From Kallipyga gabonensis (GTDB taxonomy: Bacteria > Bacillota > Clostridia > Tissierellales > Peptoniphilaceae), in NCBI RefSeq assembly GCF_001286805.1, contig NZ_CXYV01000002.1, positions 558,001-622,000 on the forward strand: a DNA stretch of 64,000 nucleotides, read 5' to 3'. The notes under the pieces are model-generated. The model had not been told where the DNA came from. It saw nothing but the letters and a program-made list of their open reading frames with translations, and did not search any database. How positions within the stretch are numbered: position 1 is the stretch's first letter; each line of letters starts with the position of its first letter. This document shows, in pieces, positions 9,229 through 36,063 of the stretch. Made by a program: the position numbers and the translations under genes.

Positions 9229-9256
9229 GTTGGCTTCATTTCGAAAGGAGAAAAGA

Positions 9257-9982: not shown

Positions 9983-9983
9983 G

Positions 9984-11792: not shown

Positions 11793-11806
11793 GGAGGGAA
11801 GGATAT

Positions 11807-12115: not shown

Positions 12116-12137
12116 ATTTATTTTTGAGGAGGAAAGA

Positions 12138-13394: not shown

Positions 13395-13424
13395 TGATTG
13401 ATATCAATTTAGAAAGGATTAACT

Positions 13425-14165: not shown

Positions 14166-14179
14166 ATTTGAGGCATAAT

Positions 14180-15343: not shown

Positions 15344-15380
15344 AAAGACCACCAACTAGAAAGTCTAGCTTTTAATGTTT

Positions 15381-15427
15381 GTTGCAACCAAAAATTGAAA
15401 ATAAACCTTTCAGCTTTTGGTTGCAAC
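15381..15427 (+). promoter_or_regulatory. 13-bp perfect inverted repeat before the cysteine desulfidase gene
   Basis: GTTGCAACCAAAA (15381-15393) and its exact complement (15415-15427), separated by 21 bp, end 25 bp before the ATG at 15452. There is no T-run after the second arm, so an operator or an RNA element acting on translation is more likely than a terminator. Confidence 0.6.
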
Positions 15428-15451
15428 TATAATTTTATGAGGGATGTCACC

Positions 15452-16726: not shown

Positions 16727-16773
16727 ATAGTAATCTACTATATTTTACTTGAGGAATCTTAAAATGATTTTTA

Positions 16774-16818
16774 TTAATTAAAGAAATGGCGGGGAGGTCC
16801 GCCATTTCTTTAATTAAA
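16774..16818. terminator. bidirectional hairpin terminator after the cysteine desulfidase gene
   Basis: A perfect palindrome (TTAATTAAAGAAATGGCGG and its complement, GGAGGT between) flanked by A/T on both sides. It can stop transcription from the left and from the dehydrogenase relic on the right. Confidence 0.85.
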
Positions 16819-16855
16819 CTAGTCCTTTCATGCTCATAATTAAGACGAACTCTCA

Positions 16856-17225
16856 TTACTTATTTACCACATTCACAGGGTTGCCCGCAAGGAATGCCTT
16901 CACATTATCAACTACACAATCCATGATCCGTTGGCGAGATTCCTTAGCCGACCAGGAAATATGGGGGGTGATCAAGCAATTTTTTGCTTGAAGGAGGGGG
17001 TTGTCAGCTTGGATAGGCTCTGTTGAAACGACATCCAAACCTGCCGCATAAACCTTGCCCGAATTTAAGGCTTAGGCAAGGTCTTCCTCAACAACCAATC
17101 CTCCTCGACTGTTATTAATAATGATCACGCCATCTTTCATCATAGCGATATTGTCGCTGTTAATGATGCCTTGAGTGGAAGGGAAGAGTGGGCAATGGAG
17201 GAAGATGACATCGGACTCCTCCACT
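16856..17225 (-). pseudogene. 3' half of a D-2-hydroxyacid dehydrogenase, truncated and with an internal stop
   Basis: Read on the minus strand, codons from about 17225 give a recognisable C-terminal dehydrogenase half: SDVIFLHCPLFPSTQGIIN, MMKDGVIIINNSRGGLV, then a TAA stop (EEDLA-stop-ALNSGKVY), then AAGLDVVSTEPIQADNPLL and ITPHISW with the catalytic His. The N-terminal half and nucleotide loop are missing. The break lies directly against the 5' end of the plus-strand AEC transporter, so one deletion probably removed both gene starts and the promoters between them. Not functional. Confidence 0.85.
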
Positions 17226-17235
17226 TATTTTTTAT

Positions 17236-18123
17236 ATGTTAGTGGGATATGCCTGTAAATTAAAAGGCCTAATTGATAAGGATCTAGCGCTTAAAATCAA
17301 TAGCTTGGTATTTTCCTTATTCATGCCGATGAACCTTTTCTTAAGTTCTAGTCAGTCTTTTGAAATAAGAAGGGAGCTAGTTGGTGTCATTGCCTTCACC
17401 CTGTCCGGCATGCTTCTTGTATTCTTCATCTCCTGGTTTTTTTACAGCAGATGGGTCACGGAGGATAAGTATCTTGGCTCCCTAATTCAATCCAGCTATC
17501 GGACGAATTTAGGTTTATTTGGTTCGGCCCTCACATATGCTCTCCTACAAGGTAAGGGAACGGGAATAATAGAGGTTTTGGTTGCGGTGTATATTCCTCT
17601 TGCCAATGTGCTCTCTATTTTTATCTTGCAGTACTATGGTTCAACAAAGACATCAATGAAGGATACCCTGGTACATGTTCTAAAGAATCCTCTGATCGAT
17701 GCTGTATTATTGGGGCTGGTATTCTCGCTTCTAGATATTAAAATCCCAGACCTCCTCTATGGACCCATGAAGTCTATTGCAAACATTGGGACACCTCTGG
17801 CTTTGATTTCGTTAGGGGCCATCTTCTCCTTTGAAGCCACAAAGAAGATTTTTAAGGCCCTTGTAGTTTCAACGATCGGTCGTCTGGTCATTGTTCCTCT
17901 CTGTATGCTATCCCTTGCAGTTCTCATCGGTTACCGAGGAGAAACTCTGGTTGCTCTTTTAGCGGTCTTTGCTTCGCCTGTAGCAGTTGTTACTTATTCC
18001 ATGTCATCCTCCATGGGACAAGATGAGGAATTGGCTGGACAGATCCTGATTTTTACTTCGATCTTCTGTGCATTCAGCTTATTTTTCTTTATCTATGTTT
18101 TTAAGAGTCTTCAACTGATATAG
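17236..18123 (+). CDS. AEC family transporter (auxin-efflux-carrier-like), probably missing its first residues
   Basis: A 295-residue membrane protein with about ten helices in two halves. It starts LVGYACKLKGLIDKDLALKINSLVFSLFMPMNLFLSS, a typical AEC first repeat, and continues with IGTPLALISLGAIFSF. Family members export or import small organic acids. Relatives usually have 10-15 further residues before LVGY. Here the upstream frame stays open but runs into the dehydrogenase relic, and no ribosome binding site precedes the ATG. So this gene lost its 5' end and promoter in the deletion; it may be silent. Nothing else in the frame is damaged. Confidence 0.75.
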   Translation: MLVGYACKLKGLIDKDLALKINSLVFSLFMPMNLFLSSSQSFEIRRELVGVIAFTLSGMLLVFFISWFFYSRWVTEDKYLGSLIQSSYRTNLGLFGSALTYALLQGKGTGIIEVLVAVYIPLANVLSIFILQYYGSTKTSMKDTLVHVLKNPLIDAVLLGLVFSLLDIKIPDLLYGPMKSIANIGTPLALISLGAIFSFEATKKIFKALVVSTIGRLVIVPLCMLSLAVLIGYRGETLVALLAVFASPVAVVTYSMSSSMGQDEELAGQILIFTSIFCAFSLFFFIYVFKSLQLI

Positions 18124-18189
18124 AATGATGGAGCCAATAAGGATTGTTAGCTGAGAGCTATAGATTTTTAATCAAAGCCTAGAAATCTT

Positions 18190-18350
18190 AGTCGTTAGGC
18201 GACAGTTCAGAAGCATAAACATCTAGGCTAGTGAGACAGAAAGCAATAACGATTAACACTAATCCAAATTTATTGGATTGTTTTCATTTCAATCTCACTG
18301 TTGTCTCAACTAAGCAACTAATGTGTGAGATGCAAGTGAGAAATCCCTCC
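18190..18350 (+). pseudogene. relic of the 3' end of a solute-binding protein gene
   Basis: The stretch from about 18210 to 18395 is similar, with differences, to the end and 3' untranslated region of the binding-protein gene at 25190-25368. GTGAGACAGAAAGCAATAAC here matches GTGAGACTGAAAGCTATAAT there (the last coding codons). The shared AACACTAATCCAA, GGATTGTTTTCATTTCA and GTGAGAAA stretches follow, then a hairpin ending in TTCTTTC. A TAA replaces a Glu codon here. Thus an older copy of the transporter operon once ended here. Confidence 0.65.
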
Positions 18351-18392
18351 TAAGAAAGAACCTAGTTTTCAAGACTAGGTTCTTTCTTTCGC
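18351..18392 (+). terminator. terminator of the lost operon copy
   Basis: AAGAAAGAACCTAGTTTT pairs with ACTAGGTTCTTTCTTT. Same design and position as the terminator at 25331-25368 after the intact binding-protein gene. Confidence 0.8.
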
Positions 18393-18526
18393 TCTATTTC
18401 TATTCTCCAAACACCTATCTTTTTTTCTTAGTCAATATTTTTTTTATTTATGACGTAGTTATATGAGCAAGCATGTTAATTAAATCTAAAAAAATAAGTT
18501 TTTTTGAATATTACGCAAGAAATCGC

Positions 18527-18555
18527 TTGCAATAGATGGCTTATTTTGATATAAT
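18527..18555 (+). promoter_or_regulatory. promoter of the module 2 operon
   Basis: TTGCAA (18527-18532), 17-bp spacer, TATAAT (18550-18555). The -35 box lies in an inverted repeat, GCAAG-AAATC-GCTTGC (18515-18530). The 9-mer GCTTGCAAT (18525-18533) recurs inverted as ATTGCAAGC at 18645-18653, downstream of the start site. These look like operator sites for the DeoR regulator encoded next. Confidence 0.75.
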
Positions 18556-18682
18556 TTAGAAAATAATGAGCAAAAAAGAAATAAATTGAAACAAACCATA
18601 TCTTTTACTCTATTTTAGAGCAAGTTTTTCTGCTAATAAAAACGATTGCAAGCCTATTTTGGAATCCTGTAGGAGGAGCTCG

Positions 18683-19450
18683 ATGATTCAAGCTGAACGT
18701 TTAGAGGCCATTCAAAACCTATCAGATACCAATGATATTGTCACATGGGAGTATTTAGAGGACCTTTTAAGTGTTTCACGTTCGACCATACGCCGTGATG
18801 TTAATGAATTAGAAAATGCTGGCATATTAAGAAAGACTACGGGCGGTTTTGTTTTTAATCCAAAGACGCATCGTAGTGAGCCAAGTAATCGAATGCGTCA
18901 GGTTTCCAATACTGAGGAAAAAATAAAGATTGCAAAAGCTGGTCTCGAATATATTGAAAACAATAGCTTTATCATGCTTGACTCTGGTTCGACAGTTACA
19001 GAATTAGCCAGGCAAATTCCAAATATATTAAATCTATATGTTGTCACTTATGATTTTCAACATATTACTTATTTGGAAGAAAAAGAAAACATCACATCAT
19101 ATCTTGCGGGGGGGGTGGTTCGAAAAGGATTTACGGCATGCCACGGACATTTTGCAGAAAAGATGATGTCCAACTTTCATGCAAATACTTGTTTTTTAGG
19201 TGCTGACGGGGTGACCCCATCGTTTGGAATATCTGGTTTCAATTCTTATGATGTTCATTTGAAACAAATCATGATCGAGCAATCTGAGCGGGTCATACTA
19301 TTAGCTGATCATTCAAAGTTCGGGAAGGATGCATTTACCTTTGTTGCTTCAGTCAAAGATATTGATGTCATCATTACAGATAATAAGACGCCTGAGAATC
19401 AAGTGGAAGCTCTGAGAGATTTGGGCGTAAAAGTCGTTGTTGTCGAATAG
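18683..19450 (+). CDS. DeoR/GlpR family transcriptional regulator
   Basis: A 255-residue repressor. The N-terminal DeoR helix-turn-helix (QAERLEAIQN...WEYLEDLLSVSRSTIRRDVNELENAGIL) is followed by a sugar-phosphate-binding isomerase-like domain (MLDSGSTVTELARQI, then FLGADGV and ADHSKFGKDAF). Such proteins sense a phosphorylated sugar, which fits the sugar kinase in the same operon. Start at 18683 is preceded by GGAGGAG; an upstream in-frame ATG at 18659 has none. It is the first gene of module 2, and the candidate operators flank its transcription start. Confidence 0.92.
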   Translation: MIQAERLEAIQNLSDTNDIVTWEYLEDLLSVSRSTIRRDVNELENAGILRKTTGGFVFNPKTHRSEPSNRMRQVSNTEEKIKIAKAGLEYIENNSFIMLDSGSTVTELARQIPNILNLYVVTYDFQHITYLEEKENITSYLAGGVVRKGFTACHGHFAEKMMSNFHANTCFLGADGVTPSFGISGFNSYDVHLKQIMIEQSERVILLADHSKFGKDAFTFVASVKDIDVIITDNKTPENQVEALRDLGVKVVVVE

Positions 19451-19465
19451 GCTAGGGAGGCTGTC

Positions 19466-20224
19466 ATGGATTTTCCAACAACTTTTTTTGGATGGGTGAG
19501 CTTTTTACTTGATAAATATTCTATGGATTTTCTCAGGGGACTCTTAGTTACTCTAGAGCTTGCAATTATCGGCACCATTTTAGGATGCCTTATCGGCTTT
19601 ATTGTGGGAATGATACGAACAATCCCGATTGATGAAGATTCCTCAATGGTGCGAAAAACACTCACAAGAATTATAAAAGCAGTTTTAAGCGTCTATGTCG
19701 AAGTAGTTCGTGGTACGCCAATGATGGTTCAAGCTATGGTTCTTTATTATGGAACGATGTCGATTTGGGATATGGATATTCCGTCATTCCGTGCCGGTAT
19801 CGCAGTCCTTTCTTTAAATATAGGTGCATATATGGCTGAATCTGTTCGGGGTGCGATTAAAGGGATTGATCCCGGTCAGATGGAAGGAGGAAAGGCGATA
19901 GGAATGAATTACGGACAAATCATGGCCCGGATTATTCTTCCACAAGCCTTTATTAATCTTATTCCACAGATTGGGAATACTTTTGTTTCTGCGATTAAGG
20001 ATACTTCTGTCTTAAACGTCATTGCTGTCACAGAATTATATTTCACAGCAAAGACAATTACCGGTACTTATTACAAATTCTTCGAAACCTACATAATCAT
20101 CTGTGCCATCTACTTTATCCTCACCTTTACCGTGTCCTATCTACTAAAATTTGTGGATAAAAAGTTAGCAGGTGGACAAAACTATGAATTGATTCTTGAT
20201 GATAGTGAAAGTGAGGTGGCCTAA
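19466..20224 (+). CDS. ABC transporter permease, polar amino acid (HisM/GlnP) type
   Basis: A 252-residue membrane subunit with about five helices. The permease fits the polar-amino-acid uptake family: [19 protein letters not shown] at the start, [19 protein letters not shown] in the middle, and the ATPase-docking EAA loop [23 protein letters not shown]. It works with the ATPase encoded next and the lipoprotein binding protein at the operon end. Its stop and the ATPase start share one base (TAATG), so translation is coupled. An unusual feature is its operon with sugar-type enzymes. Confidence 0.92.
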
Positions 20225-20961
20225 TGGCAGAACCCATCCTACGTGTTGAGCATCTGAAAAAAACATTCGGTACACATGAGGTTTTAAAAGATATTAATTT
20301 TGAAGTGGACAAAGGTGAGGTTATTTCTGTAATCGGTTCTTCAGGATCAGGAAAATCAACTCTCCTGCGTTGTATTAATCAGTTGGAAAGAGTTACAGAT
20401 GGAAAAATCCTTTACAAAGGGCAGGAGGTTCCAAGATCTACTAAAGGAAAAAGCCTATTTCGGGCTAAGGTTGGCATGGTTTTCCAGTCTTTTAACCTCT
20501 TTGCCAACCTAAATGCAATAGAAAATTGCATGATTGGTCCCCAAACAGTTCTGAAAAAGAGCAAGCAAGAGGCTCAAGAACTGGCCATGAAATACTTGAA
20601 GGCAGTAGGGATGAGTGCTTATCGAAACGCTCGCCCCCATCAATTATCCGGTGGACAAAAACAAAGAGTGGCTATTGCCAGAGCCCTTTGTATGCAGCCC
20701 GAAGTTCTATTATTCGATGAACCTACTTCGGCCCTTGATCCGGAGATGGTGGGTGAGGTACTACAAGTAATTGCAAAGCTAGCTGAAACAGGTATGACCA
20801 TGGTTATTGTCACACATGAAATGATGTTTGCAAGAGACATTTCCAGCCGTGTTGTTTTCATGGACCATGGAGTTATTGAGGAGCAGGGCCCGCCTGAACA
20901 GCTGTTTAATAACCCGAATAGTGAAAGAACCAGGGAATTCTTAGCTAGATTTCAAAGATAG
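20224..20961 (+). CDS. ABC transporter ATP-binding protein, polar amino acid type
   Basis: A 245-residue ATPase that powers the import system. Walker A is [10 protein letters not shown]-loop MVFQSFNLF, signature LSGGQKQR, Walker [16 protein letters not shown], and the switch His is in VTHEM. Highly similar to GlnQ/HisP-type subunits. Cotranslated with the permease gene and followed after 38 bases by the isomerase gene. Confidence 0.95.
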
Positions 20962-20999
20962 GGGATAGACCTGGATAAAAGAGGAGAGAGGAGTTTCCC

Positions 21000-21827
21000 T
21001 TGATTACGGCAACAAAGATCGCCGGTATGGGAATACATTACCGATATTTTTCTCGTTCATATATGTTGGAGGCACAAAAATCAGTTGGCTTTTCTTCCAT
21101 TGAATTATATTGCGGAGAGCCTCATATTCACATTAGCTCTGAGGGAATAGCGGATGAAAAGGAAGTGATAAAAGATATTAAAGATTCAGGGTTACAAGTG
21201 ATATGTGTTACTCCGGATAATTGTATGAGCCCTTGGCAATACGCCGTCAGAGGTGATACAGCTCTGCAAGAAACTAAGAGGTATTTTTTGAGTACACTTG
21301 ACCTCGCTCTTACACTCCAATGCCCAAGAGTAGCCTGTCATTCCGGCTGGGGGATGAGAAATGAATCAGAGAAAGAAGCCTGGTTGAGGAGTCTACATTT
21401 TTTTGAGTGGTATGCAGAACAAGCAGCTGACAGGGGGATAATCCTAGTGATGGAATCCCTTCGGGAGCAAGAATCAAATCTGGTCAACTCCTTGCCTCGC
21501 CTGAAAAGATATTTAAAGGAACTGGACCATCCCTCCGTTCAGCCTATGATTGATACCTGTGCGATGGCGGTAGCGGGTGAAACTTTGGAGGATTGGTTCA
21601 ATGCATTTGAAGGCAATATTCAGCACCTCCATTTTATCGATGGAACCCCTTACGGTCATCTTGTATGGGGGGATGGGAATCGGTCATTGACCGATTATAT
21701 TGAAACACTTAATAAATTTGGCTATCAAGGATACCTAACTCAAGAGCTCACGGATAATAGATATTATGTTGATCCCAAGGAGGCAGATAAAAAAAGTTTT
21801 AAGGCTATTTGTCAACAGCTGGATTAA
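21000..21827 (+). CDS. sugar phosphate isomerase/epimerase family protein, FrlC-like
   Basis: A 275-residue TIM-barrel protein of the AP-endonuclease-2/xylose-isomerase-like fold. The pattern GFSSIELYCGEPHIHI, then a TPDN...GDTALQET segment, ILVMESLREQESNLVN, MIDTCAMAVAGE and IQHLHFIDG resembles E. coli FrlC, the fructoselysine 3-epimerase. The acidic and His residues in these blocks are the expected metal ligands. It starts with TTG, supported by GAGGAGAGAGGAG upstream. With an amino-acid-type importer beside it, a glycated amino acid or similar conjugate is a plausible substrate. The FrlC resemblance is from memory of the family, not from a search. Confidence 0.82.
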   Translation: MITATKIAGMGIHYRYFSRSYMLEAQKSVGFSSIELYCGEPHIHISSEGIADEKEVIKDIKDSGLQVICVTPDNCMSPWQYAVRGDTALQETKRYFLSTLDLALTLQCPRVACHSGWGMRNESEKEAWLRSLHFFEWYAEQAADRGIILVMESLREQESNLVNSLPRLKRYLKELDHPSVQPMIDTCAMAVAGETLEDWFNAFEGNIQHLHFIDGTPYGHLVWGDGNRSLTDYIETLNKFGYQGYLTQELTDNRYYVDPKEADKKSFKAICQQLD

Positions 21828-21861
21828 CTTATTGAAATAATCTTAAAGAAATGAGGTATTT

Positions 21862-22656
21862 ATGTGGACAAAAGAACTGTTCGGGACAGATAAACCAATT
21901 ATTGCTTTATTACATTTAGATTCACTGCCGGGTGAGCCCGGGTATCAGGGTTCACTGCAAGATGTTATGGATCATGCAAAGACTGATTTGGACAATTTGC
22001 AGGAAGCCGGTGTAGATGGAATTCTTATTGCCAACGAGTATTGCTTTCCAATTACTGCAGATACAGGAACCGTTACTTTAATGGCCATGGCAGCAGTTAT
22101 AGGTTATTTATATCCACACATTAAGGTCCCCTTTGGTACCAACGTGGTGTATAACCCGGAAGAAACCATTAAGATGGCGGCCGTCTTTGATGCCTCTTTT
22201 GGAAGAAGTGCCTTCAGTGGTGCTTATACAGGAACCTATGGCATTCATTCCGTGGATTTTGGCAAGAATGTCCGTCTGAAATATTCATTAGGGAAACCGG
22301 AAATTCAGTTGCTTTGTAAATTCAATCCCGAAGGTGATTCACGCCTTGGTGATCAAACAGAAGAAGAGGTATTTAAGACCTTAACGGATGGGGGTTTTGT
22401 AGGAGCTCTGTGTGTTTCCGGACCTGGTTCAGGACAAGAAGCTGACTATGGCTATCTGACTAAAATCTGTGAAATGGCGAAAACTCGCAAGGTTCTCGTT
22501 TTTTGTAATACCGGATGCCGATATGACACAATCGATAAAATTCTAGAAGTGGCGGACGGTGCTTGCGTTGGTACTGCTTTTAAGGATGAGAGCGGCAGAG
22601 TATCTCTTGAAAAGACCAAGAAATTTATGGAATTGGTTAAGGAAAAACGCAGTTAA
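21862..22656 (+). CDS. BtpA/SgcQ family TIM-barrel protein
   Basis: A 264-residue soluble protein with family hallmarks: PIIALLHLDSLPGEPGYQG at the N-terminus, LQEAGVDGILIANEYCFP, VPFGTNVVYNPEETIKMAAVFDASFGR, and a C-terminal part ending in a Gly-rich turn (VCVSGPGSGQ-like) and ADGACVGTAFK. BtpA relatives are common in sugar-utilisation operons, but their reaction is not established. As no deglycase or aldolase is otherwise present, this protein is the candidate for the bond-cleaving step after phosphorylation; that is inference. GAGG is before the ATG. Confidence 0.85.
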   Translation: MWTKELFGTDKPIIALLHLDSLPGEPGYQGSLQDVMDHAKTDLDNLQEAGVDGILIANEYCFPITADTGTVTLMAMAAVIGYLYPHIKVPFGTNVVYNPEETIKMAAVFDASFGRSAFSGAYTGTYGIHSVDFGKNVRLKYSLGKPEIQLLCKFNPEGDSRLGDQTEEEVFKTLTDGGFVGALCVSGPGSGQEADYGYLTKICEMAKTRKVLVFCNTGCRYDTIDKILEVADGACVGTAFKDESGRVSLEKTKKFMELVKEKRS

Positions 22657-22671
22657 GTTAGAGAGATGATC

Positions 22672-24198
22672 ATGAAAAAGTATTTTATGGGTGTTGATGT
22701 AGGGACACAACAGACAAAAGGCATATTAATTGACCAAAATTTACGGCCAGTTACTAGTTATGCAGTCAGTCATACCATTGAAAACTCTCAACCTTACCAC
22801 TATGAAATGGATGCCAATATCTGGTGGGATGAATTTTGTCAGATCAGTAAGGAGTTACAAAAATCAGCTGGAATCGAATCCCAAGAGATTGCAGGCGTAG
22901 GTGTCAGCGTAATGGGTTGCGACTGCATATCTGTGGATCGTGAGGTCAAGCCCATTAGAAAGGCGATTTTATACGGAATTGATGCTCGATCCGTGGACCA
23001 AATTAGGAAGCTTGACGAGGATTTTGGGGAAGAAAAAGTTTTGGAAATGTTCGGTCATAAACCTAATTCCGATGATATTTCCACTAAGATCCTATGGATC
23101 AAGGAAAATGAACCGGAAGTTTTTAAGAAAACCTATAAATTCCTTACCGGTTCCTCTTATATGGTCGCTAAACTCACTGGAAACTATTGGATTGACCAAT
23201 ATCTGGCTAAAGGCTCCTTTCGCCCTCTTTATAACGATGATGGTTCCTTCAATAATGAATACTCCTCCTATTTCTGTACCAGTGATCAGTTGGCTAAGAC
23301 CGGTGTAGTCACCGATATTGCCGGGGGAGTCAATCAAAAAGCAGCAGAAGAAACCGGACTTAAAGAGGGAACACCTGTCATTATCGGAACCGGTGATTCA
23401 ACGGCAGAATCCGTGGCTTCCGGTTTGTTAGAAGAAGACATCCTCTTTGCCCAGGTTGGTTCAACCCTCTTCTATATCTTTTCAACAAATCAGAAGATTC
23501 CCTCATGTGATTTGGATAATTTCCCGGGAAGTGAGATTTTTACCGTTCCCGGTATTTATGCGGTGATGGGGGGGACAAATGCAGCAGGCTCTCTAACCGG
23601 ATGGATTAGGGATGAATTTTATTTTCCTGAGAGAGACCGGGAAAAAGGAGGCGGCCAAAACGCCTTTAAGATCATGGCTGAAGAGGCAGCAGAAATCCCG
23701 GCTGGTAGTACGGGGCTAGTTATCCTGCCTTATATTCATGGAGAAAGAAGCCCTATCCATGATCCTAAAGCCAGAGGAGTAATTTTCGGACTAAGAGGAC
23801 AGCATGATAGGAAGTCGATTACCCGTGCTTCTTTAGAAGCCGTTGCTTATTCTATCGGTTCCCATTTAAGATTATTTAAAAAACATAATCTTATCCCAAA
23901 TAAAATAATTTTGGCAGGAGGTGGTACAAAAAACAAAGTGTGGATGCAGATCATGGCTGATGTTCTTCAAAGTGAAATCTGTATTGCCGAAGATTGGCAA
24001 ACTGCTAGCTTTGGAGACGCATGTATGGCAGCAGTAGGAAGCGGTGAGCTGGCTGACTTTAAAGAATTGGCAGACGCTTTACCTCATGGAAGGATCATCC
24101 GTCCCAACCCAGATAATTTTGAGATTTATCAAAAATATTTGGATATCTATGAGGAGTTGTACCGCCGAAATAAGGATCTAATGCACGCATTATCCTAG
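22672..24198 (+). CDS. FGGY family carbohydrate kinase
   Basis: A 508-residue ATP-dependent sugar/polyol kinase. N-terminal GVDVGTQQTKGILID (phosphate-1 loop), GVGVSVMGCDC, then VIIGTGDSTAESVASG (catalytic Asp), VGSTLFY, and the C-terminal ILAGGGTKNKVWMQIMADVLQ adenosine loop are all present. Xylulokinase-like in layout; the sugar cannot be assigned. It follows the BtpA gene by 15 bases and probably traps the imported or epimerised substrate as a phosphate. An ATG two codons earlier (22666) is possible. Confidence 0.9.
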   Translation: MKKYFMGVDVGTQQTKGILIDQNLRPVTSYAVSHTIENSQPYHYEMDANIWWDEFCQISKELQKSAGIESQEIAGVGVSVMGCDCISVDREVKPIRKAILYGIDARSVDQIRKLDEDFGEEKVLEMFGHKPNSDDISTKILWIKENEPEVFKKTYKFLTGSSYMVAKLTGNYWIDQYLAKGSFRPLYNDDGSFNNEYSSYFCTSDQLAKTGVVTDIAGGVNQKAAEETGLKEGTPVIIGTGDSTAESVASGLLEEDILFAQVGSTLFYIFSTNQKIPSCDLDNFPGSEIFTVPGIYAVMGGTNAAGSLTGWIRDEFYFPERDREKGGGQNAFKIMAEEAAEIPAGSTGLVILPYIHGERSPIHDPKARGVIFGLRGQHDRKSITRASLEAVAYSIGSHLRLFKKHNLIPNKIILAGGGTKNKVWMQIMADVLQSEICIAEDWQTASFGDACMAAVGSGELADFKELADALPHGRIIRPNPDNFEIYQKYLDIYEELYRRNKDLMHALS

Positions 24199-24267
24199 AA
24201 CATCTTTAAATGACTCACCGGAATAAAGCGGATGATGAAGATCTCATCTATTGAAAAAGGAGAAACT

Positions 24268-25239
24268 ATGAAAAAACGTAAATTCACTGTGTTAGCACTG
24301 GTCCTATCTTTTGCTTTCATCTTGGCTGCTTGTGGCAACAACAAGCCTAATGATACAAATTCATCTGAGGATCCCAATGCATCATCTCAAGCTTCGGAAT
24401 CTCAGGAAGCATCGAATACTGAAGAAAAATATCCTGCCGGTTATACTCTTCGTGTCGGGATGAACTGTGGTGCCGCTCCCTTCAACTGGACTCAGGATGA
24501 TGACTCCTATAATGGTTATCCCATTGATGGAACACAGCAATTTGTTGCTGGATATGATGTTGAGATGGCTCGTCGAATCTGCGATGCTAATGGTTGGAAA
24601 TTGCAAGTTATTAAAACGGATTGGGATGGCATGATTCCTGGAGTAGTCTCAGGAAAACTTGATTGCTGCATTTCCACTCTTGGCGTAACCAAAGAACGTC
24701 TCCAATCCGTAGATTTCTCGCACTATTATTGGAATAATGGTTGCGTTATGGTTGTACGTAAAGATAGCAAATACGCCAATGCCACCTCTCTTCAGGATTT
24801 TGATGGTGCAAAGGTAACTTCTGAACTCGTTTCCATTTGGATGCCTCTCGTTGATCAGATCCCGAATGTGGACAAACAGCCTGGCTTATCAGATATGTCC
24901 CAGCTTCTAGTTGGTGTAAGCTCCGGTAAGTTAGATGCCATTATCACTGGCCTGACTGAGGCACAGTCTGGATGTATGTCCAACCCTGATCTTACATATG
25001 TTACTTTTGAGGAAGGCAAAGGATTTGATGTTGAGCTGTCCGCTCTGTGTGCAGCAATTCCTATTCAAAAGGGAAATACCGAGTTGATTGAAAAATGCAA
25101 TAAGGTCATCGATACCCTGTCTGATCAAGATAGGTTGGATATTATGACCAAAGCTTTGAACTCCCAGCCCTTGAGTGATGGATCCGATGCGGAAGCCATC
25201 CAAGCAAGTGAGACTGAAAGCTATAATGATGAACACTAA
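24268..25239 (+). CDS. ABC transporter substrate-binding lipoprotein, family 3
   Basis: A 323-residue lipoprotein: basic start, hydrophobic stretch, lipobox ILAAC (Cys23), then a Ser/Asn/Glu-rich linker. The family 3 binding domain follows, with LRVGMNCGAAPFNWT, AGYDVEMARRIC, WDGMIPGVVSGKLDCCISTLGVTKERLQSVDFSHYY. The Arg after the Thr-Lys-Glu is the residue that grips the alpha-carboxylate in amino-acid binders, so an amino acid moiety in the ligand is likely. Start chosen at 24268 (AAGGAG before it). It is last in the operon, after a 69-bp gap. A relic of a second copy's 3' end lies at 18.2 kb. Confidence 0.9.
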   Translation: MKKRKFTVLALVLSFAFILAACGNNKPNDTNSSEDPNASSQASESQEASNTEEKYPAGYTLRVGMNCGAAPFNWTQDDDSYNGYPIDGTQQFVAGYDVEMARRICDANGWKLQVIKTDWDGMIPGVVSGKLDCCISTLGVTKERLQSVDFSHYYWNNGCVMVVRKDSKYANATSLQDFDGAKVTSELVSIWMPLVDQIPNVDKQPGLSDMSQLLVGVSSGKLDAIITGLTEAQSGCMSNPDLTYVTFEEGKGFDVELSALCAAIPIQKGNTELIEKCNKVIDTLSDQDRLDIMTKALNSQPLSDGSDAEAIQASETESYNDEH

Positions 25240-25330
25240 TCCAAGTTTCTAGGATTGTTTTCATTTCATTCTCACTATCATTTCCACTAAATAACTGCGT
25301 TGTGGAATGTTCGTGAGAAAACCCTCCAAA

Positions 25331-25368
25331 AGAAAGGACCTGACCCTAGGGCCAGGTCCTTTCTTTTT
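25331..25368 (+). terminator. terminator of the module 2 operon
   Basis: AGAAAGGACCTGACCCT pairs with AGGGCCAGGTCCTTTCT and runs into TTTTTAATA. It sits about 90 bases after the binding-protein stop, and the composition returns to GC-rich soon after. Confidence 0.88.
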
Positions 25369-25510
25369 AATAAAAGACTGAAACAAATCAACTATCTCGC
25401 ATTTTTAGTGCTTTATTATCGCCTTATTCCAAATTTACTGGTCAAGGCTATGCAAATCCTGGATGGTCATGGTGTACTTTACGGAGTCAAGATAATGGTC
25501 CTCATGGAAA

Positions 25511-25551
25511 TAGTGGTGGTGGGGCGTTTTTTCGCCAACCACCACTACTCC
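25511..25551. repeat. single intergenic hairpin unit (same arms as array F)
   Basis: TAGTGGTGGT and ACCACCACTA form a 10-bp inverted repeat around GGGGCG-TTTTTT-CGCC. The arms are the same as those of the array at 61.85-62.14 kb. It lies in the 370-bp gap between the island terminator and the TerB operon; nothing else is seen in that gap. Confidence 0.7.
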
Positions 25552-25643
25552 TGACTCCAATCCAACCCCCTCCCCGTGTCCTACCGAAAAAGCGGGGTAT
25601 ATATGATCAGATGAAGATACGGCAGGACCGGGAAGGAGAGGGC

Positions 25644-27839
25644 ATGGATCAGGATTTTTCAAAATGGTTGTTATCGCAGATCAAGGACCCTGACCTGGTC
25701 GACCGGATGAAGGCCCGGATGGCGGAGAAGGACCTGGCGGAGACCCGTGAGGCAGCCCCCTCCGATGAGGACATCCTCGAGGTATCCGGGGTCGTCGGGT
25801 CGGACATCCGGGCATCCGGAATGAAGGAGGGGGCCCGTCTCCAAGAGAGGGAGTCTAGGATGAGGCAAATCCGCCGGGGCCATGAATACCAGCCGGACGG
25901 TTTTTGGCTCAACCGCCTATATAGTGGGCCCCCCATGGATGAGGCCCGGGCCCGGTGGATTTTTCAGGACATGGGTCCGGAGCCGGATCCTTGGACTGAG
26001 AGCAATCGGTCGGAAGATGAGGAGAGGGAAGCCCGGATGGCCCGGGAGGGCGGCGAGGCCATGAGGACCTGGGCCGAGGGCCTCTATGAGCACCTGGCCA
26101 ACTTCGCCAATGGCCTGGCTTTCACCTGGTCACCCCGTTATGCCGGCCAGTCCGGGGAGGAGGAAGCCCGCTTCCAGGGGGTCTTTCTTTCCTCTGCCCT
26201 CCTACGTCGGCTGGCCACCTATGCCCGGGACCGGGTGGAGGCCCACTTCTCGCCCGACCGGGAGGAGGATCCTTCTTTGTCCCTCCCCAAGGACCTCCGG
26301 AGCCTCCAAGGGGCTTTTGGACGCCAAGGGGTGGAGGACCTGGTCCTCCTGGCGGATGCCCTGGTCGAGGAGATTCCTCCGGCCGGGCCCCGGGAGTACC
26401 TGGCCATGGGCTATACGGAGACCGGGATCCGGAAGACCTGGTGGGATCCGGAGGGAAGGATCCAGGCCCAGGGAAATTACAGCCCCCTCCAAATCCGGCG
26501 CTTTGACCATGAGCCCCTGAAAAAGACCTTCGTCTGGACAGCCCCGCCTCTGGCGGAGCGGATCCTGGCCCTCTATGACCGGGTCTGCGACGTCCTCCGG
26601 GAGGCCCTGGAAGACGACAGCATCCGCTGGCGGTCCCTGGCCATGAAGACCTACCTCTATAGCTCAGTGACGGGTAAGAAGGTGGACAATCCCAACAACT
26701 ACACCCTCCTCTCCAACATCTTCCGCCTGTCCGAGGACCGGGTCCGGGCTCTGATTCCCGGCCTCCCGGCCCTGGCCATTGGGGAAGATCTGCAGAACCT
26801 GGAGAGGCGTCTGCCCTTGACCGTCCGAAAGGCCGTCCTGGCCACTATCGAGACCTACCAACTCCCCCCCTTATCCGGGGAGGAGATGGCCGGGATGATC
26901 CACCTCTCTCGCTACGGGGTCAAGATGGCGGAGGTCTGGGGTCAAGAGGGGGAGGACCCCCTGGCCCGGAAGCGGGAGATCATCAACAAGCTGAGCCCGG
27001 AGGATGCCTTCACCCTCCTTCGGCGCTGGTCGACCGACGACGTCGACCTGGAAAGCCTCCGCCTGATCCTCATGGCGGTCAAGCGGGAAGGGGAGGGGAA
27101 GGAGCCCAGCCCTGCCCAGGCCAGGAAGAGGGCCCGGCTCATGGACCCCTCCTGGGAGGGGACCTATCTCAAGATGGTCCGGACTCTGTCTCGGGCCGAC
27201 CTGGCTCGTTCCAAGGAAGAGGGACCACCTCGCTCCACGGACCTCCAGAACCTCTATGACCGCCTCATGGAGGACCCGGGCCTGGCTCGGGAGCTAGTGC
27301 CGGAGGAAAAGGAGCGTCGTGCCGGCCTGGTCCACCAAGGGGCCTGGGCCGACCTTCTGATGGCCATCCTGTCCGGTTTCCGGACGCCCAAGGCCAGGAC
27401 CCTCACCCTCAATCGGTCAGCCATCCGGGCTTCCCGGGAGAAGCTGGCCGATACGGTGGACTTCCTGGGCCGCTTCCTCGATGAGGAAGATCAGGACGCT
27501 GAGGGCCCGCCGAAAGAGGAGGACCTTTCGGAGGCGGAAGAGGCGACAGAAGCCCCTCCCGCCCCCAAAGAAGCCTTCGGCCGCCCCTTGGATGCCCGGG
27601 CGGAGACCCTTCTGGAAGCCCTGGTGGAGAATGAGGACTTTGCCCTCCCCATGGATCGGGCCCAGGCCCTGGTAGGGGGACCGGATGAGCCCCTGGCTCC
27701 GGTTCTCGGCCGGATCAACGATGCATTTTATGACGATATTGGAGCCCAGCTGGTCGAAGTTGAGGGGGACCGGGTGGTCATGGACCCCTATGACGGCGAA
27801 TGGCTCCAGTCCCTGAGAAAGGAAGAAGCTCATGAGTAA
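25644..27839 (+). CDS. TerB-N/TerB-C domain-like protein of a putative defence operon
   Basis: A long soluble protein of about 731 residues (742 if the ATG at 25611 is used; GGAGAGGG stands before 25644). The body (residues 70-480) has the charged helical character of TerB-N proteins. After an acidic Glu/Pro-rich linker (about 620-655) the end (RAETLLEALVENEDFALPM...LGRINDAFYDDIGAQLVE) resembles TerB-C. TerB-N/C proteins occur beside P-loop ATPases and Lhr-like helicases in predicted stress and defence operons, exactly the set found here. No catalytic motif is evident. Its stop overlaps the next start by 8 bases. Family assignment is from pattern, not a search. Confidence 0.68.
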   Translation: MDQDFSKWLLSQIKDPDLVDRMKARMAEKDLAETREAAPSDEDILEVSGVVGSDIRASGMKEGARLQERESRMRQIRRGHEYQPDGFWLNRLYSGPPMDEARARWIFQDMGPEPDPWTESNRSEDEEREARMAREGGEAMRTWAEGLYEHLANFANGLAFTWSPRYAGQSGEEEARFQGVFLSSALLRRLATYARDRVEAHFSPDREEDPSLSLPKDLRSLQGAFGRQGVEDLVLLADALVEEIPPAGPREYLAMGYTETGIRKTWWDPEGRIQAQGNYSPLQIRRFDHEPLKKTFVWTAPPLAERILALYDRVCDVLREALEDDSIRWRSLAMKTYLYSSVTGKKVDNPNNYTLLSNIFRLSEDRVRALIPGLPALAIGEDLQNLERRLPLTVRKAVLATIETYQLPPLSGEEMAGMIHLSRYGVKMAEVWGQEGEDPLARKREIINKLSPEDAFTLLRRWSTDDVDLESLRLILMAVKREGEGKEPSPAQARKRARLMDPSWEGTYLKMVRTLSRADLARSKEEGPPRSTDLQNLYDRLMEDPGLARELVPEEKERRAGLVHQGAWADLLMAILSGFRTPKARTLTLNRSAIRASREKLADTVDFLGRFLDEEDQDAEGPPKEEDLSEAEEATEAPPAPKEAFGRPLDARAETLLEALVENEDFALPMDRAQALVGGPDEPLAPVLGRINDAFYDDIGAQLVEVEGDRVVMDPYDGEWLQSLRKEEAHE

Positions 27840-29115
27840 CCGACGCCCCATACGAAAACGAGAAGCCCAACAGATCATCCAGGCCCTGGAAGGGGGGATT
27901 GTCCCCCGGATGGGCCTCCGCCACCTCCTGGTGGGTCGCCAGGCCCAGGTCCGGGAAGTGGCTGACCGGCTGAGCCGGGTGGAGGAGGGGGGAAGTGACC
28001 TTATGATCTGGGTAGGGGATTTCGGGTCCGGCAAGTCCTTCATGCTGGGGGCCATCCAGCAACTGGCCCTCCAGAAGAATTTCGTGGCCTCGACTGTGGA
28101 CCTCTCTCCCTCCCGCCGCTTTCAGGCCAGTGACGGCAAGGGCCTGGCCCTTTACCAGGAAGTCATCCGGAGGCTCCAGTCCCGGACCTCAGGAGAGGGG
28201 AATGCCCTGGCCCATATCCTGGATGCCTGGATGGCAGGACTGGGGGAGGACTTCGAGGTCGTTCAGGAAAAAATCTTTGCCAGTGTGGAGGACTTCCAGA
28301 CGGGGGGCCTCCGCTATGAGCTGGGCCAGGCCCTGGTGGCCTATGCCTCGGGGATGATGGAGGGGAACCGGGATCGGAAGCTTCAGGCCCTCCGCTGGCT
28401 AGGGGGGCAGATCCCCACCAAAACCGAGGCCAAGCAGGTCCTGGGGATCAGCCAGATCATCCGGGACGACAACTGGACCCTCTTCCTGCAAAACCTGGCC
28501 GAGCTCTTCCGGGTCATGGGCTTTGCCGGCTTTGTGGTGAATTTCGATGAGCTGGTCAACCTTTACAAGCTCCCCCGGACCCAGTCCCGGGACCAGAACT
28601 ATGAGCGCATCCTCAACCTCTACAACGACCTCAAGTCGGGGGCGGTCCCCGGCCTCTATGTCAATTTGGCGGCCACCCGGAAGACCGTTTTCGATGGGCG
28701 CCGGGGAATGGCTTCCTATGGGGCGCTTAAGAGTCGGATCGGGACGGAGGACCCCGGCCTTCGGGACCTGGTGGACACCTCATCCACTCTCCAGATCCTC
28801 CACCCCCTGACTCCTGAGGAGATTTTCACCCTCCTGGAAAAGCTCCAGGACGTTTTCCTGACCCTCTATCCGGAGGGGCGAGCCCTGTCGGATGGGGAGA
28901 TCGCTCGCTATATGCAGGCCCAGCTTAACCGGCCGGGGGCGGATGAGTTCCTGACCCCCCGGGCTGTAATCAAGGACTTCCTCCTCCTTCTCCAACTGGC
29001 CCGCCAGAATCCGGAGGTCTCGGCAGGGGACATCCTGGCCAAGCAGTTCGGCCGGATGGGCCGGGTGGTCCGAGACCAGGACGACCATGATGATGACGTC
29101 ATTGAACTCCTTTGA
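27832..29115 (+). CDS. BrxD-like P-loop ATPase (DUF2791)
   Basis: A 427-residue ATPase. IVPRMGLRHLLVGRQAQV leads into Walker A GDFGSGKSFML, then FVASTVDLSPSRRF, and Walker B-like FVVNFDELVNLYKL, all as in BREX protein BrxD and relatives. The C-terminal third looks like an AAA-type lid followed by a winged-helix region (LTPEEIFTLLEKLQDVF...). BrxD is found in type 2 BREX together with the helicase BrxHI; here both are present without PglX, PglZ or a methylase. It overlaps its neighbours on both sides, so the three proteins are made together and probably act as one system. Confidence 0.85.
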   Translation: MSNRRPIRKREAQQIIQALEGGIVPRMGLRHLLVGRQAQVREVADRLSRVEEGGSDLMIWVGDFGSGKSFMLGAIQQLALQKNFVASTVDLSPSRRFQASDGKGLALYQEVIRRLQSRTSGEGNALAHILDAWMAGLGEDFEVVQEKIFASVEDFQTGGLRYELGQALVAYASGMMEGNRDRKLQALRWLGGQIPTKTEAKQVLGISQIIRDDNWTLFLQNLAELFRVMGFAGFVVNFDELVNLYKLPRTQSRDQNYERILNLYNDLKSGAVPGLYVNLAATRKTVFDGRRGMASYGALKSRIGTEDPGLRDLVDTSSTLQILHPLTPEEIFTLLEKLQDVFLTLYPEGRALSDGEIARYMQAQLNRPGADEFLTPRAVIKDFLLLLQLARQNPEVSAGDILAKQFGRMGRVVRDQDDHDDDVIELL

Positions 29116-31324
29116 CCGGCTGGATCCGGCCATCCGCCACTATATCTATGACCAGGGCTGGCAGGCCCTCCGCCCCATCCAGGAGACCGCCATCCGGATG
29201 GTCATGGAGACCGACCAGAACCTGGTCCTGGCTTCGCCCACCGCTTCGGGAAAGACGGAGGCGGCCTACCTCCCCGCCATCTCCACCATGGACTGGGGGG
29301 AGGGGTCAGTCCGGATCCTGACCCTTTCTCCCCTGATTGCCCTCATCAACGACCAGTTCAAGCGGATCTACGACCTCTGTCGCCACCTGGACATCCCGGT
29401 CGTGGCCTGGCATGGGGAAGCCTCATCGGCCAAAAAGAAGAAGATCCTGGAAAGGCCTGCCGGGATCGTCATCATGACCCCCGAATCTTTGGAAGCCATG
29501 TTGGACCTCCACCCCGAGCGAGCCGACCGGCTTTTCTCCGGCCTGGAATGGGTCCTGGTGGATGAGGTCCACAGCTTCCTGGGCACGGCCCGGGGGGGCC
29601 AGGTTCGCTCCCTCCTTGCCCGGCTCATGAACCGGATTCCGGCTCGACCCCGCTTCATCGGCATGTCGGCCACCCTGGCCCGGGACAACATTGGCGAGGT
29701 CAAGGCCTTTTTCCCCTCGGACCTCCCCACCCGGATCCTCATGGACAGCCGGCAAAGGGAAATTGAGTCGGATCTCTTTTTGTATCGGGAGGAGGAAGAC
29801 CTTGTCGGCGGGAGGGGTGGGGGATTCCATGAGGATGCCGGGAACCGCCTCCTGGACGGGGTCTTTGACTGCCTGAAAAAGGAGAACCTCCTCATCTTCC
29901 CCAATTCCCGGAAGAAGGTGGAGGAGACGGCCGACGGGCTCAAGCGGCGGGCTCGGAAGGAGGGGATGGATGTGGCCATCTTTGCCCACCATTCCTCGGT
30001 GGAAAAGGCCCTCCGGGAGGAGGTCGAAGCCTTCGTCAAGCAGCCCAACCGGCCCTTTGCCATCTGTGCCACCTCCACTCTGGAGCTGGGGATCGACATC
30101 GGGTCCGTGGATGCCGTGGCCCAGGTGGAAGCCCCTCCCTCGGCCATCTCCCTCTCTCAGCGTCTGGGCCGGTCGGGTCGTGGGGAGGTCTTCGACCCCA
30201 TCTCGGGCAAGATGAAGCCCCAGCCGGCCCGCCTCCACTTTTTCGCCAGCCGGGATGAGGCCTTCCTTCAGGGGGTGGCTGCCCTGGACATGGTCCGGGC
30301 CGGCGACCTGGATGGGACCGCCCCCCTGGCCAAACCCTATGACGTCCTGGCCCACCAGGTCCTAGCCCTCATTTTAGAACGGTCGGGGATGACCTTGTCC
30401 GAGATTTTCGCCCTGCCCGACCGGATCCCGGCCCTCTCCTTTGCCAGCCGGGCTGACCTGGAGGACCTCCTGGACTTTTTCCTGGACCGGGACTACATTG
30501 AGATCCTCCCGGGCGATGAGGAAGAGGGCATCATCGGCCTGGCCGGGGAAAAAATTGTCGGCAGCCGGGACTTCTATGCCCTCTTTCAGGCGGAAAATGA
30601 CTACGAAGTGGTCCATGGCAAGGACCGGGTGGGCCACCTCCCCCTCACGCCTGACCTCCAAGTCGGCTCCCGCTTCCTCCTGACGGCCCGGGTCTGGGAG
30701 GTGACCGAAATCCTGGACCGGACCCGGAAGATCCTGGTCAAGCCCGCATCCCAAGGCAAGGGCCCGACCTTCGGCGGCCAGGGGATGGAGGTTTCCGGCC
30801 GCCTCCGCCGGCGGATGGTCCAAATCCTCCGTAATCCCCCCGAAGACATCCTATCCCGGCCCGATTTTCACGAGGCCTTCAGTCGCATGGCCGAGAAATA
30901 CCCCGATCCCACCTACATCCAAGCCCACGAGACCGGAGAAGGCGGGGTCAAGCTGGCCCTCTTTATTGGAACCGCCATGGAAAGGACTCTCTATCTCCAC
31001 CTCCTGGCCATGGTCCCGGAGTCACCCAACGGCATCCTTTGGAATGCCGGCCAGGGGACCATGGAGGGCCCCGCCCTGGGCCAGGCCCTCTCCCTCCTTC
31101 GCCGGAACCTCATGGACCAGGGGACCCTGGACCGGACCGGAGTCCGTGACCTCCTGGAGGAAAATGAGCCCCTCCGCAACCGCCTCTTGACCGGCATCAA
31201 GTACGCCTTCCTCCTCCCCGTCCGCCTCCAGGTCGACTTTATCCTGGACAACCTCTGCGAGGACGGCCTGGAAGACCTCCTTGTGGACTTCTGGGAGGAG
31301 AGTGGCCCTGGGAGTCTTTGGTAG
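29087..31324 (+). CDS. Lhr/BrxHI-like superfamily 2 DEAD/DEAH-box helicase
   Basis: A 745-residue helicase. Motif I ASPTASGKTEAA, Ia SPLIALINDQF, II LVDEVHSFLG (DEVH box), III GMSATLA, then helicase C with CATSTLELGIDIGSVDAV and SQRLGRSGR. The remaining 350 residues form the Lhr-type C-terminal extension. It starts at any of three consecutive ATG codons (29087, 29090, 29093) inside the end of the ATPase gene. Last gene of the operon; it is followed directly by array B and no T-rich terminator is seen. Related proteins serve in BREX type 2 and in DNA repair. Confidence 0.9.
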   Translation: MMMTSLNSFDRLDPAIRHYIYDQGWQALRPIQETAIRMVMETDQNLVLASPTASGKTEAAYLPAISTMDWGEGSVRILTLSPLIALINDQFKRIYDLCRHLDIPVVAWHGEASSAKKKKILERPAGIVIMTPESLEAMLDLHPERADRLFSGLEWVLVDEVHSFLGTARGGQVRSLLARLMNRIPARPRFIGMSATLARDNIGEVKAFFPSDLPTRILMDSRQREIESDLFLYREEEDLVGGRGGGFHEDAGNRLLDGVFDCLKKENLLIFPNSRKKVEETADGLKRRARKEGMDVAIFAHHSSVEKALREEVEAFVKQPNRPFAICATSTLELGIDIGSVDAVAQVEAPPSAISLSQRLGRSGRGEVFDPISGKMKPQPARLHFFASRDEAFLQGVAALDMVRAGDLDGTAPLAKPYDVLAHQVLALILERSGMTLSEIFALPDRIPALSFASRADLEDLLDFFLDRDYIEILPGDEEEGIIGLAGEKIVGSRDFYALFQAENDYEVVHGKDRVGHLPLTPDLQVGSRFLLTARVWEVTEILDRTRKILVKPASQGKGPTFGGQGMEVSGRLRRRMVQILRNPPEDILSRPDFHEAFSRMAEKYPDPTYIQAHETGEGGVKLALFIGTAMERTLYLHLLAMVPESPNGILWNAGQGTMEGPALGQALSLLRRNLMDQGTLDRTGVRDLLEENEPLRNRLLTGIKYAFLLPVRLQVDFILDNLCEDGLEDLLVDFWEESGPGSLW

Positions 31325-31359
31325 GGAGTGGCCAGGGCAGCCTTGCGCTGGCTGGGCTC

Positions 31360-31628
31360 CATACCCCTCCAAATGTCGATAATGGCGGGATGAGGGGTAT
31401 CCCCATGCCCCTCCAAATGGCGAAAATGTCGGGAAGGAGGGGTATCCCCATGCCCCTCCAAATGACGAAAACAGCGGGAAGGAGGGGTATCCTCATGCCC
31501 CTCCAAATGGTGAAAATAGCGGGAGGGAGGGGTATCTCCATACCCCTCCAAATGTCGAGAACGGCGGGAAGGAGGGGAAACCTCATACCCCTCCAAATGG
31601 TGAAAACGGTGGGAAGGGCGGTATCCCG
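31360..31628. repeat. intergenic hairpin array B (six 45-bp units)
   Basis: Units start at about 31362, 31407, 31452, 31497, 31542 and 31587 with an exact 45-bp step. Each is CCCCTCC, core AAATGGCGAAAATGTCGGGAA (variable), GGAGGGG, then TATCCCCATG as linker. The two arms are fully complementary in most units. It fills the space between the helicase stop and the tyrS promoter. Confidence 0.9.
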
Positions 31629-31830: not shown

Positions 31831-31933
31831 CTCATGGCCCGGCGGCACCCCAAGGCACCCCAAGGGACCCCAGGCCACCCCAAGGCAGCCCCAGTCGGCC
31901 TATGGCACTAGTCACGTGATCGGAGGAGATAGT

Positions 31934-33178
31934 ATGGTGATGAAGTATGAGATGGAACATGATAATATCGTCGATGAACTGAAGGAAAGAGGATATTTTG
32001 ACAATACGACGGATGAGGAGGGGCTTCGAGATTACCTGTCCCAGCCGGGGAGGAAGTTTTACATCGGCTTTGATGCGACGGCGGATTCCCTGACCATCGG
32101 CCATTTCATCCAGATTATGGTCATGATGCGGATGCAGGCGCATGGGATGGTGCCGATTGCCCTGCTGGGCGGTGGGACGACCATGATCGGGGACCCCTCC
32201 GGGCGGTCGGATATGCGGACCCTCATGACCAAGGAAACCATCCAGCACAATGCGGATCGGTTTGCGGAACAAATGGGACGTTTTCTGGATTTTGAGGAAG
32301 GAAAAGGGATCATCCGCAACAACAAAGACTGGCTCCTCCAGCTCAACTACTTGGAATTTATGCGGGATGTAGGGGTTCATTTTAACGTCGGTGAGATGGT
32401 CAAAAAGGATGCCTACAAGAACCGCCTGGCGGAGGGGGGACTGACCTTCTTCGAGTTTTCCTATATGCTCCTCCAGTCCTACGACTTCCTGGTCCTCTTC
32501 CGGGAGGAAGGCTGCCGGCTCCAACTGGGTGGGTCGGACCAGTGGGCCAACATCATCGGCGGGGCCGACCTCATCCGCAAGGCGGAGAATGAGCAGGCCT
32601 TTGGGCTGACCTTCAAGCTCCTGACCACAGCGGACGGGGTCAAAATGGGCAAGTCCATGAAGGGGGCTGTATGGCTGGATGAGGAAAAAACCTCGGCCTA
32701 CGACCTCTTCCAGTACATGCGCAACGTCGATGACCGGGATGTGGAGAAATTCCTCCTCCAGCTGACCTTCCTCCCCACCGCCAAGTGCAAGGAGCTGGGA
32801 TCCTACCGGGATGAGCGAATCAACCAGTCCAAGGAAATCCTGGCTTATGAGGTAACCAAGCTGGTCCATGGTCAGGAAGCCGCCGACCGGGCCATGGAAA
32901 CCTCCCGAGCCCTCTTTTCCTCCGGCATGGATCATGAGGATATGCCCAGCCAGGAGATTGAGGTTGAAGGGGAGAGCCTGGGCCTCCTCAACCTCCTCAC
33001 CCAGGCCGGATTGACCAAATCCAATGGGGAAGCCCGTCGCCTGGTCCAGCAGGGAGGGATCACCATCGACGATGAGAAGGTGACCGATCCCGGGGTGGAG
33101 ATTGCCAAGGCCCGCCTCCAGGAAGGGATTACCGTCAAAAAGGGAAAGAAAATTTACCTCCGGGTGATCGCCCGCTAG
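31934..33178 (+). CDS. tyrS: tyrosyl-tRNA synthetase
   Basis: A 414-residue class I enzyme that charges tRNA-Tyr. It has YIGFDATADSLTIGHF (HIGH-type motif), GGGTTMIGDPSGRSDMR, LLQSYDFL, LGGSDQWANI and KMGKS (KMSKS-type), with an S4 RNA-binding domain at the C-terminus (LLTQAGLTKSNGEARRLVQQGGI). Overall layout is of the TyrRS type with a compact C-terminus. Start at 31934 follows GGAGGAG by 6 bases. Controlled by the T-box leader upstream, so expression should rise when uncharged tRNA-Tyr accumulates. Confidence 0.97.
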   Translation: MVMKYEMEHDNIVDELKERGYFDNTTDEEGLRDYLSQPGRKFYIGFDATADSLTIGHFIQIMVMMRMQAHGMVPIALLGGGTTMIGDPSGRSDMRTLMTKETIQHNADRFAEQMGRFLDFEEGKGIIRNNKDWLLQLNYLEFMRDVGVHFNVGEMVKKDAYKNRLAEGGLTFFEFSYMLLQSYDFLVLFREEGCRLQLGGSDQWANIIGGADLIRKAENEQAFGLTFKLLTTADGVKMGKSMKGAVWLDEEKTSAYDLFQYMRNVDDRDVEKFLLQLTFLPTAKCKELGSYRDERINQSKEILAYEVTKLVHGQEAADRAMETSRALFSSGMDHEDMPSQEIEVEGESLGLLNLLTQAGLTKSNGEARRLVQQGGITIDDEKVTDPGVEIAKARLQEGITVKKGKKIYLRVIAR

Positions 33179-35814: not shown

Positions 35815-36063
35815 GGAGAGGTCGCCCTATTCGGCCATTTTGCGAATAAGGCGGTGGAGGATTTCCGCCTCATTTTGTCATTTTACGAATAGGGCGGTAA
35901 TAAAATACCGCCCTTTCTGCCGATTTCCTGATTTGAGGAGGTATGAGCATACCGCCCTTTCCGGCGATTTTGCGATTTGAGGCGGTAGAGGGATACCGCC
36001 CTTTCCGGCGATTTTGCGATTTGGGGCGGAATGAGGATACCGCCCTTTCCGGTGATTTTGAAG
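35815..36063. repeat. intergenic hairpin array C, interrupted by the IS element
   Basis: Five to six units of about 45 bp with arms CCGCC(C)/GGCGGTA and a core CGATTTTGCGATTTG (the reverse complement of the array A/B core). They start just after the surface-protein terminator. The last unit is cut inside its core by the IS3 element and resumes at 38111 (array D). Confidence 0.85.

Follow-up and report, generated by a model that had tools for sequence, protein, structure and literature searches.

A predicted Shango operon with a TerB_C-only SngA protein in Kallipyga gabonensis

Background

The Shango system of P. aeruginosa PA14 consists of a TerB-like protein, an ATPase and a DEAD/DEAH helicase (Johnson et al. 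2023, PMC10250203) and reduces the plating of many phages 10-100 fold (PMC10250203). According to the citation in that paper, Shango had been described earlier in E. coli (Millman et al. 2022). Phylogenetic analysis has grouped its helicase SngC with BrxHI, DruE and DpdJ in what may be a separate clade of immune helicases (PMC12278908). In type 2 BREX, BrxHI and the ATPase BrxD form a tightly linked dyad, and comparative evidence has led to the proposal that BrxD loads or activates BrxHI on DNA (PMC12839542).

Here we describe a three-gene operon within 64,000 nucleotides of Kallipyga gabonensis (contig NZ_CXYV01000002.1, positions 558,001 to 622,000; the whole stretch is called the window). 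An earlier reading of this DNA, made without database searches (the sequence-only reading), had proposed a stand-alone ATPase-helicase defence candidate composed of a 'TerB-N/C-like', a BrxD-like and a BrxHI-like protein. The trio is most likely just that, but the system already has a name, Shango, and has been tested against phages.

Results and discussion

The Kallipyga trio and its family assignment

The three genes are encoded on the plus strand and span positions 25644-31324, as given in the sequence-only reading. The first, sngA (25644-27839), encodes a mostly helical protein of 731 amino acids with a C-terminal TerB_C domain, as judged from PADLOC, Pfam, AlphaFold and hydropathy; sngB (27832-29115) encodes a BrxC/D-type AAA+ ATPase of 427 amino acids and sngC (29087-31324) an SF2 DExH helicase of 745 amino acids with a weak Lhr-type winged helix, both assigned from PADLOC, Pfam and sequence motifs. 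The overlaps of 8 bases (sngA/sngB) and 29 bases (sngB/sngC), together with conservation of the trio in relatives, bear out the view of the sequence-only reading that the genes form a single operon. The start codon of sngA, ATG at 25644, has a good ribosome-binding site upstream (GGGAAGGAGAGGGC-ATG), while an alternative in-frame ATG at 25611 has none. An intrinsic terminator-like hairpin with a T-run (about 25328-25372, plus strand, inverted repeat AAAAGAAAG...CTTTCTTTT; terminator scan) stands between the upstream solute-binding-protein gene and the trio, and a promoter scan found no sigma-70 promoter in 25200-25700. The tyrS gene (31916-33178) lies downstream of sngC. The GC content of the trio is 64% vs 51% for the window.

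Each of the three proteins has a Shango family as its best PADLOC match: SngA for the first (1.8e-17, restricted to the C-terminal part, positions 385-517 of the 528 profile positions), SngB for the second (4.7e-127, 422.7 bits vs 3.3e-39, 133.3 bits for BrxD) and SngC for the third (8.8e-172, 571.5 bits vs 9.8e-101, 336.1 bits for BrxHI). The labels 'BrxD-like' and 'BrxHI-like' were thus correct as to homology, but both proteins are nearer to SngB and SngC by hundreds of bits. SngB carries the BrxC_BrxD domain (PF10923, formerly DUF2791; 3.6e-112), with a Walker A motif (GDFGSGKS, residues 62-69) and a Walker B-type motif (VVNFDE, ending at residue 240); the core motif residues are invariant across 12 relatives, and SngB is the one PF10923 protein of the genome assembly (completeness about 90%). 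SngC has the Pfam domains DEAD and Helicase_C, a weak, sub-threshold WH_Lhr match and intact motifs (DEVH at 159, SAT at 194 and QRLGRSGR at 358). SngA has a TerB_C domain (PF15615, about 2.5e-8, residues 581-712). Among the families that the sequence-only reading had named, DUF2791 and TerB_C were therefore found and Lhr weakly so, while TerB_N was not. Given these E-values and the conservation of the trio across dozens of genomes, a chance origin is ruled out.

With a TerB-family protein, an ATPase nearer to SngB than to BrxD and a helicase nearer to SngC than to BrxHI, all encoded by adjacent genes of one operon, we are highly confident in assigning the trio to Shango (sngA-sngB-sngC) from its sequence. 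The trio is almost certainly a defence system, and it is an already described one, not a new one; the locus is very probably a complete, intact Shango operon that restricts phages. What appeared to be an undescribed, BREX-derived trio has thus resolved to a known system, and reasoning from the sequence alone did reach a real defence operon.

Repeats and low-GC region in the window

Between sngC and tyrS are six 45-bp repeats (31359-31627, no strand assigned), the first of which has the potential to fold into a hairpin (ATACCCCTC...GAGGGGTAT). Because members of this repeat family are also found elsewhere in the genome, at several sites, we rejected these repeats as a component of Shango. Including this array, related units of 44-45 bp form intergenic tandem arrays at 2089-2300, 31359-31627, 35905-36060 and 49670-50012; genome-wide, there are 26 units of the CCCCTCCAAATG type at several sites and none with the reversed control pattern. 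A different hairpin (TAGTGGTGG...CCACCACTA) has a single copy at 25511-25547, some 100 bp ahead of sngA, and a tandem 54-bp version at 61846-62022; it occurs at six places in the genome and, again, the reversed control pattern gave none. A low-GC stretch of 17 kb (about 8100-25300; 34-43% GC vs 51% for the window) ends just before the trio and encodes an ABC transporter, an FGGY kinase, BtpA and DeoR. Neither of the other two Kallipyga genomes has the genes from window positions 17-25 kb next to the trio, and the stretch is probably a recent acquisition.

SngA is the variable part of Shango

Pfam profile searches detected neither TerB_N nor TerB in the window SngA, so that of the 'TerB-N/C-like' description only the C-terminal half holds. 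The same is true for its relatives: in a Bacillota-centred set of 38 SngA proteins, TerB_C was found in 36, TerB_N and TerB in none. The Proteobacterial form, with TerB_N and a central TerB domain, is different: TerB_N was present in all five Proteobacterial SngA proteins checked and TerB in four of these. One Bacteroidota SngA likewise has TerB_C only and the PADLOC SngA profile matches all 38 proteins of the set; we therefore treat the absence of TerB_N and TerB as sub-type variation and not as a property that defines Shango. Profiles of Bacillota and Proteobacterial SngA align only across TerB_C (about 124 columns). As this domain is all that the two have in common, function may have drifted in the Bacillota branch. 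The TerB_C-only SngA of Bacillota, with the membrane modules that some of its relatives have at the N-terminus, is a mildly new point about Shango.

SngA is also the least conserved of the three proteins. Within Anaerococcus, identities to one reference species are 29-51% for SngA, 68-78% for SngB and 48-77% for SngC; between Kallipyga and Levyella/Murdochiella they are about 25%, 60% and 49%, respectively. The proteins differ at the N-terminus too. A domain search of the 38 SngA proteins found an N-terminal TM2 domain in four (shown directly for loci L062 and L063), and the SngA of Rhizorhabdus has a DUF805 domain at this position. Other SngA proteins have hydrophobic N-terminal segments; a hydropathy scan of the window SngA found none, and no transmembrane segment anywhere in the protein. 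The SngA genes that encode such TM2 or DUF805 modules are located at L062 6903-9011, L063 6720-9008 and L085 1633-5004. These modules suggest membrane anchoring of some Shango systems.

AlphaFold predicts a mostly helical fold for the window SngA (pLDDT 73), for which Foldseek retrieved nothing from the PDB at E<=0.001; the better ones of the weak matches are winged-helix regulators, and the modelled TerB_C domain resembles a winged helix in outline. A sequence search of solved structures returned no match for SngA or SngB.

One possible reading, which we hold only tentatively and with more doubt than belief, is that Shango of the Bacillota/Fusobacteriota branch forms a sub-type of its own. 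Its SngA would have kept nothing but the TerB_C tail, joined to a helical body that is either unrelated or too diverged to be recognised, and would serve as a modular, fast-evolving sensor with a swapped N-terminus. The N-terminal variants on which this reading draws are absent from the window SngA: Tissierella, Peptostreptococcus and Vagococcus have TM2 or other membrane segments, and Rhizorhabdus has DUF805. If true, swapped SngA N-termini would connect one shared ATPase-helicase core to triggers in the cytosol or at the membrane. As the variable, modular part of Shango, SngA offers a useful handle on the mechanism of the system.

Distribution and genomic context

The closest named relative is Kallipyga massiliensis (98% SngB identity). 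Of 130 genomes of the family, 26 have SngB and 104 do not; in all 20 SngB-bearing family genomes that were fetched, sngA-sngB-sngC is complete. All three genes are present at 43 of the 44 loci of the genome collection, the one exception (L072) being a contig that ends just before sngA. The order is A-B-C at 40 of these 43 loci, B-C-A at two (both Ruoffia), and at one, in Ligilactobacillus, sngA is on the opposite strand; the rearranged loci are L067 (3611-8503), L069 (364-5235) and L064 (4537-12423), and the inverted sngA of Ligilactobacillus is also long. At two loci one gene is split into two frames (sngC in L057, sngA in L079).

SngB matches were found in 690 plasmid records, mostly of conjugative plasmids, a count that may include BrxD-type relatives. 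The trio was present at all six plasmid loci inspected; at several of these its neighbours include AbiE genes, a Lit-family gene, transposases or integrase genes. On two plasmids of Alphaproteobacteria, a gene for a PD-(D/E)XK nuclease lies directly 3' of Shango (L081 9494-13206, L086 8841-11191), followed in L081 by a UvrD helicase gene; this region is possibly a linked second module. No SngB relatives were found in phage and viral collections, and a phage or viral origin of the trio was rejected on this basis. In the SngB tree, the window protein groups with Kallipyga, then with Levyella and Murdochiella (full support), and these genera fall inside a Bacillota/Fusobacteriota clade that is set apart by a long branch, at a split for which the tree program issues a long-branch warning. 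The flanks of more distant relatives contain type I/II restriction-modification genes, AbiD, HicB-like antitoxins, recombinases and transposases; this list, from a pooled scan that had no matched control, is no more than suggestive.

In Kallipyga itself the surroundings are different. All three Kallipyga genomes have the trio next to tyrS, and in Levyella the distance between the two is ~3.5 kb. This linkage suggests long vertical residence. The window ORFs scanned contain no other clear defence gene, and the Kallipyga trio stands in no obvious defence island; elsewhere it is on conjugative plasmids with AbiE, Lit and transposase genes as neighbours.

Anaerococcus is informative in this respect. 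SngB and SngC occur in the same 19 of 31 species, at one chromosomal site, where the trio is upstream of an Mrr_cat gene, within about 10 kb. Mrr_cat is kept in all 31 species. In three species without the trio (L105, L106 and L107, to be compared with the occupied sites L023-L036), the Mrr_cat gene has a fructosamine-kinase gene as its neighbour, with a gap of 82 bp in two and of about 1 kb in the third; at the occupied sites, sngABC lies between these two genes. As the trio is present or absent at a fixed site while the flanking genes are kept, it is a dispensable cassette, as expected for a defence system and not for a core function. Two neighbours were considered as partners and rejected: the Mrr_cat endonuclease as a missing nuclease, because all Anaerococcus species have it, with or without the trio (no Mrr_cat protein was found in the genome of the window), and the fructosamine kinase, which is found in 15 of the 19 carriers but also in the three non-carriers and is treated as a mere neighbour.

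Alternative explanations and proposed mechanism

Could the trio be a relic or a pared-down version of type 2 BREX, a BrxD-BrxHI dyad that has lost PglX, PglZ and PglW and works with a TerB protein instead? The homology of SngB to BrxD (3e-39) and of SngC to BrxHI (1e-100) and the linkage of the dyad in BREX favour this, but we consider it extremely improbable: the Shango families score far higher (423 vs 133 and 572 vs 336 bits), the ATPase reaches 134.4 bits vs the BrxD equivalog cut-off of 350 (NCBIfam), and the TerB gene belongs to the trio at every uncut locus. The genome assembly, at about 90% completeness, has no match to PglZ (PF08665), and no BREX proteins were found among the other window ORFs scanned. 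BREX membership was rejected on the family scores and the absence of PglZ from the assembly, and the sequence-only reading was right in setting the trio apart from BREX. Only slightly less remote is a housekeeping or DNA-repair operon of Peptoniphilaceae, in which an Lhr-like helicase and its loader would not be directed at phages. Such a role would fit the tyrS linkage in Kallipyga and Levyella, the single ancestral site in 19 Anaerococcus species and the recognisable relationship of SngC to the ligase-associated DEXH (Lhr-like) helicase. Against it stand the 104 family genomes that lack SngB, the presence or absence of the trio at an otherwise conserved Anaerococcus site, its carriage by conjugative plasmids near AbiE, Lit and transposase genes, and the validation of the PA14 homologue as anti-phage (PMC10250203); the trio is, in other words, not confined to housekeeping contexts.

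Given that Shango is the preferred reading, how it may act is less certain. We infer every step of the following mechanism, the one that we favour, which we regard as plausible but somewhat short of an even chance: SngA senses or targets, SngB loads and SngC unwinds foreign DNA. SngB, an ORC/Cdc6-like AAA+ ATPase, would be the loader or switch that puts SngC onto invading or abnormally replicating DNA; SngA would be the fast-evolving adaptor or sensor that sets when or where; and SngC would translocate along the foreign DNA and unwind it, so that replication is blocked or the DNA is exposed to host nucleases. The trio has no nuclease gene and any degradation would therefore need host enzymes. 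The missing nuclease, the expectation that SngC-type helicases work on DNA and the modest protection by Shango in plaque assays (10-100 fold, PMC10250203) could also be reconciled with a barrier against plasmids or mobile elements in general, which would act on incoming DNA at establishment with phage effects being secondary. This is unlikely, if less so than the two alternatives above: Shango itself is common on conjugative plasmids and hence must tolerate them, and a literature search found no published anti-plasmid activity of Shango.

Comparison with known systems

Type 2 BREX resembles the Kallipyga trio in its homologous, adjacent ATPase and helicase genes; it differs in that the trio has a TerB protein, no PglZ was found, and the scores are far below those of BrxD and BrxHI membership. 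Lhr and the ligase-associated DEXH repair helicases share the helicase core and the weak Lhr winged helix with SngC, but SngC scores 198 vs an equivalog cut-off of 850 and is accompanied by SngA and SngB.

The closest described systems are Shango of PA14 (cDHS1) and of E. coli. Phage protection has been demonstrated for the PA14 homologue and is predicted for the Bacillota branch. The Kallipyga copy further differs in its position outside any obvious defence island, in the long branch that sets its SngB apart from Proteobacterial and Bacteroidota SngB, and in an SngA with no detectable TerB_N and TerB. Common to all are the same three genes in the same order in a tight operon, encoding a TerB-family domain protein, a BrxC/D-type ATPase and a DExH helicase, with Shango as the best family match for every protein. 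The finding shows Shango to be a chromosomal cassette, probably of long standing, in Gram-positive anaerobic cocci.
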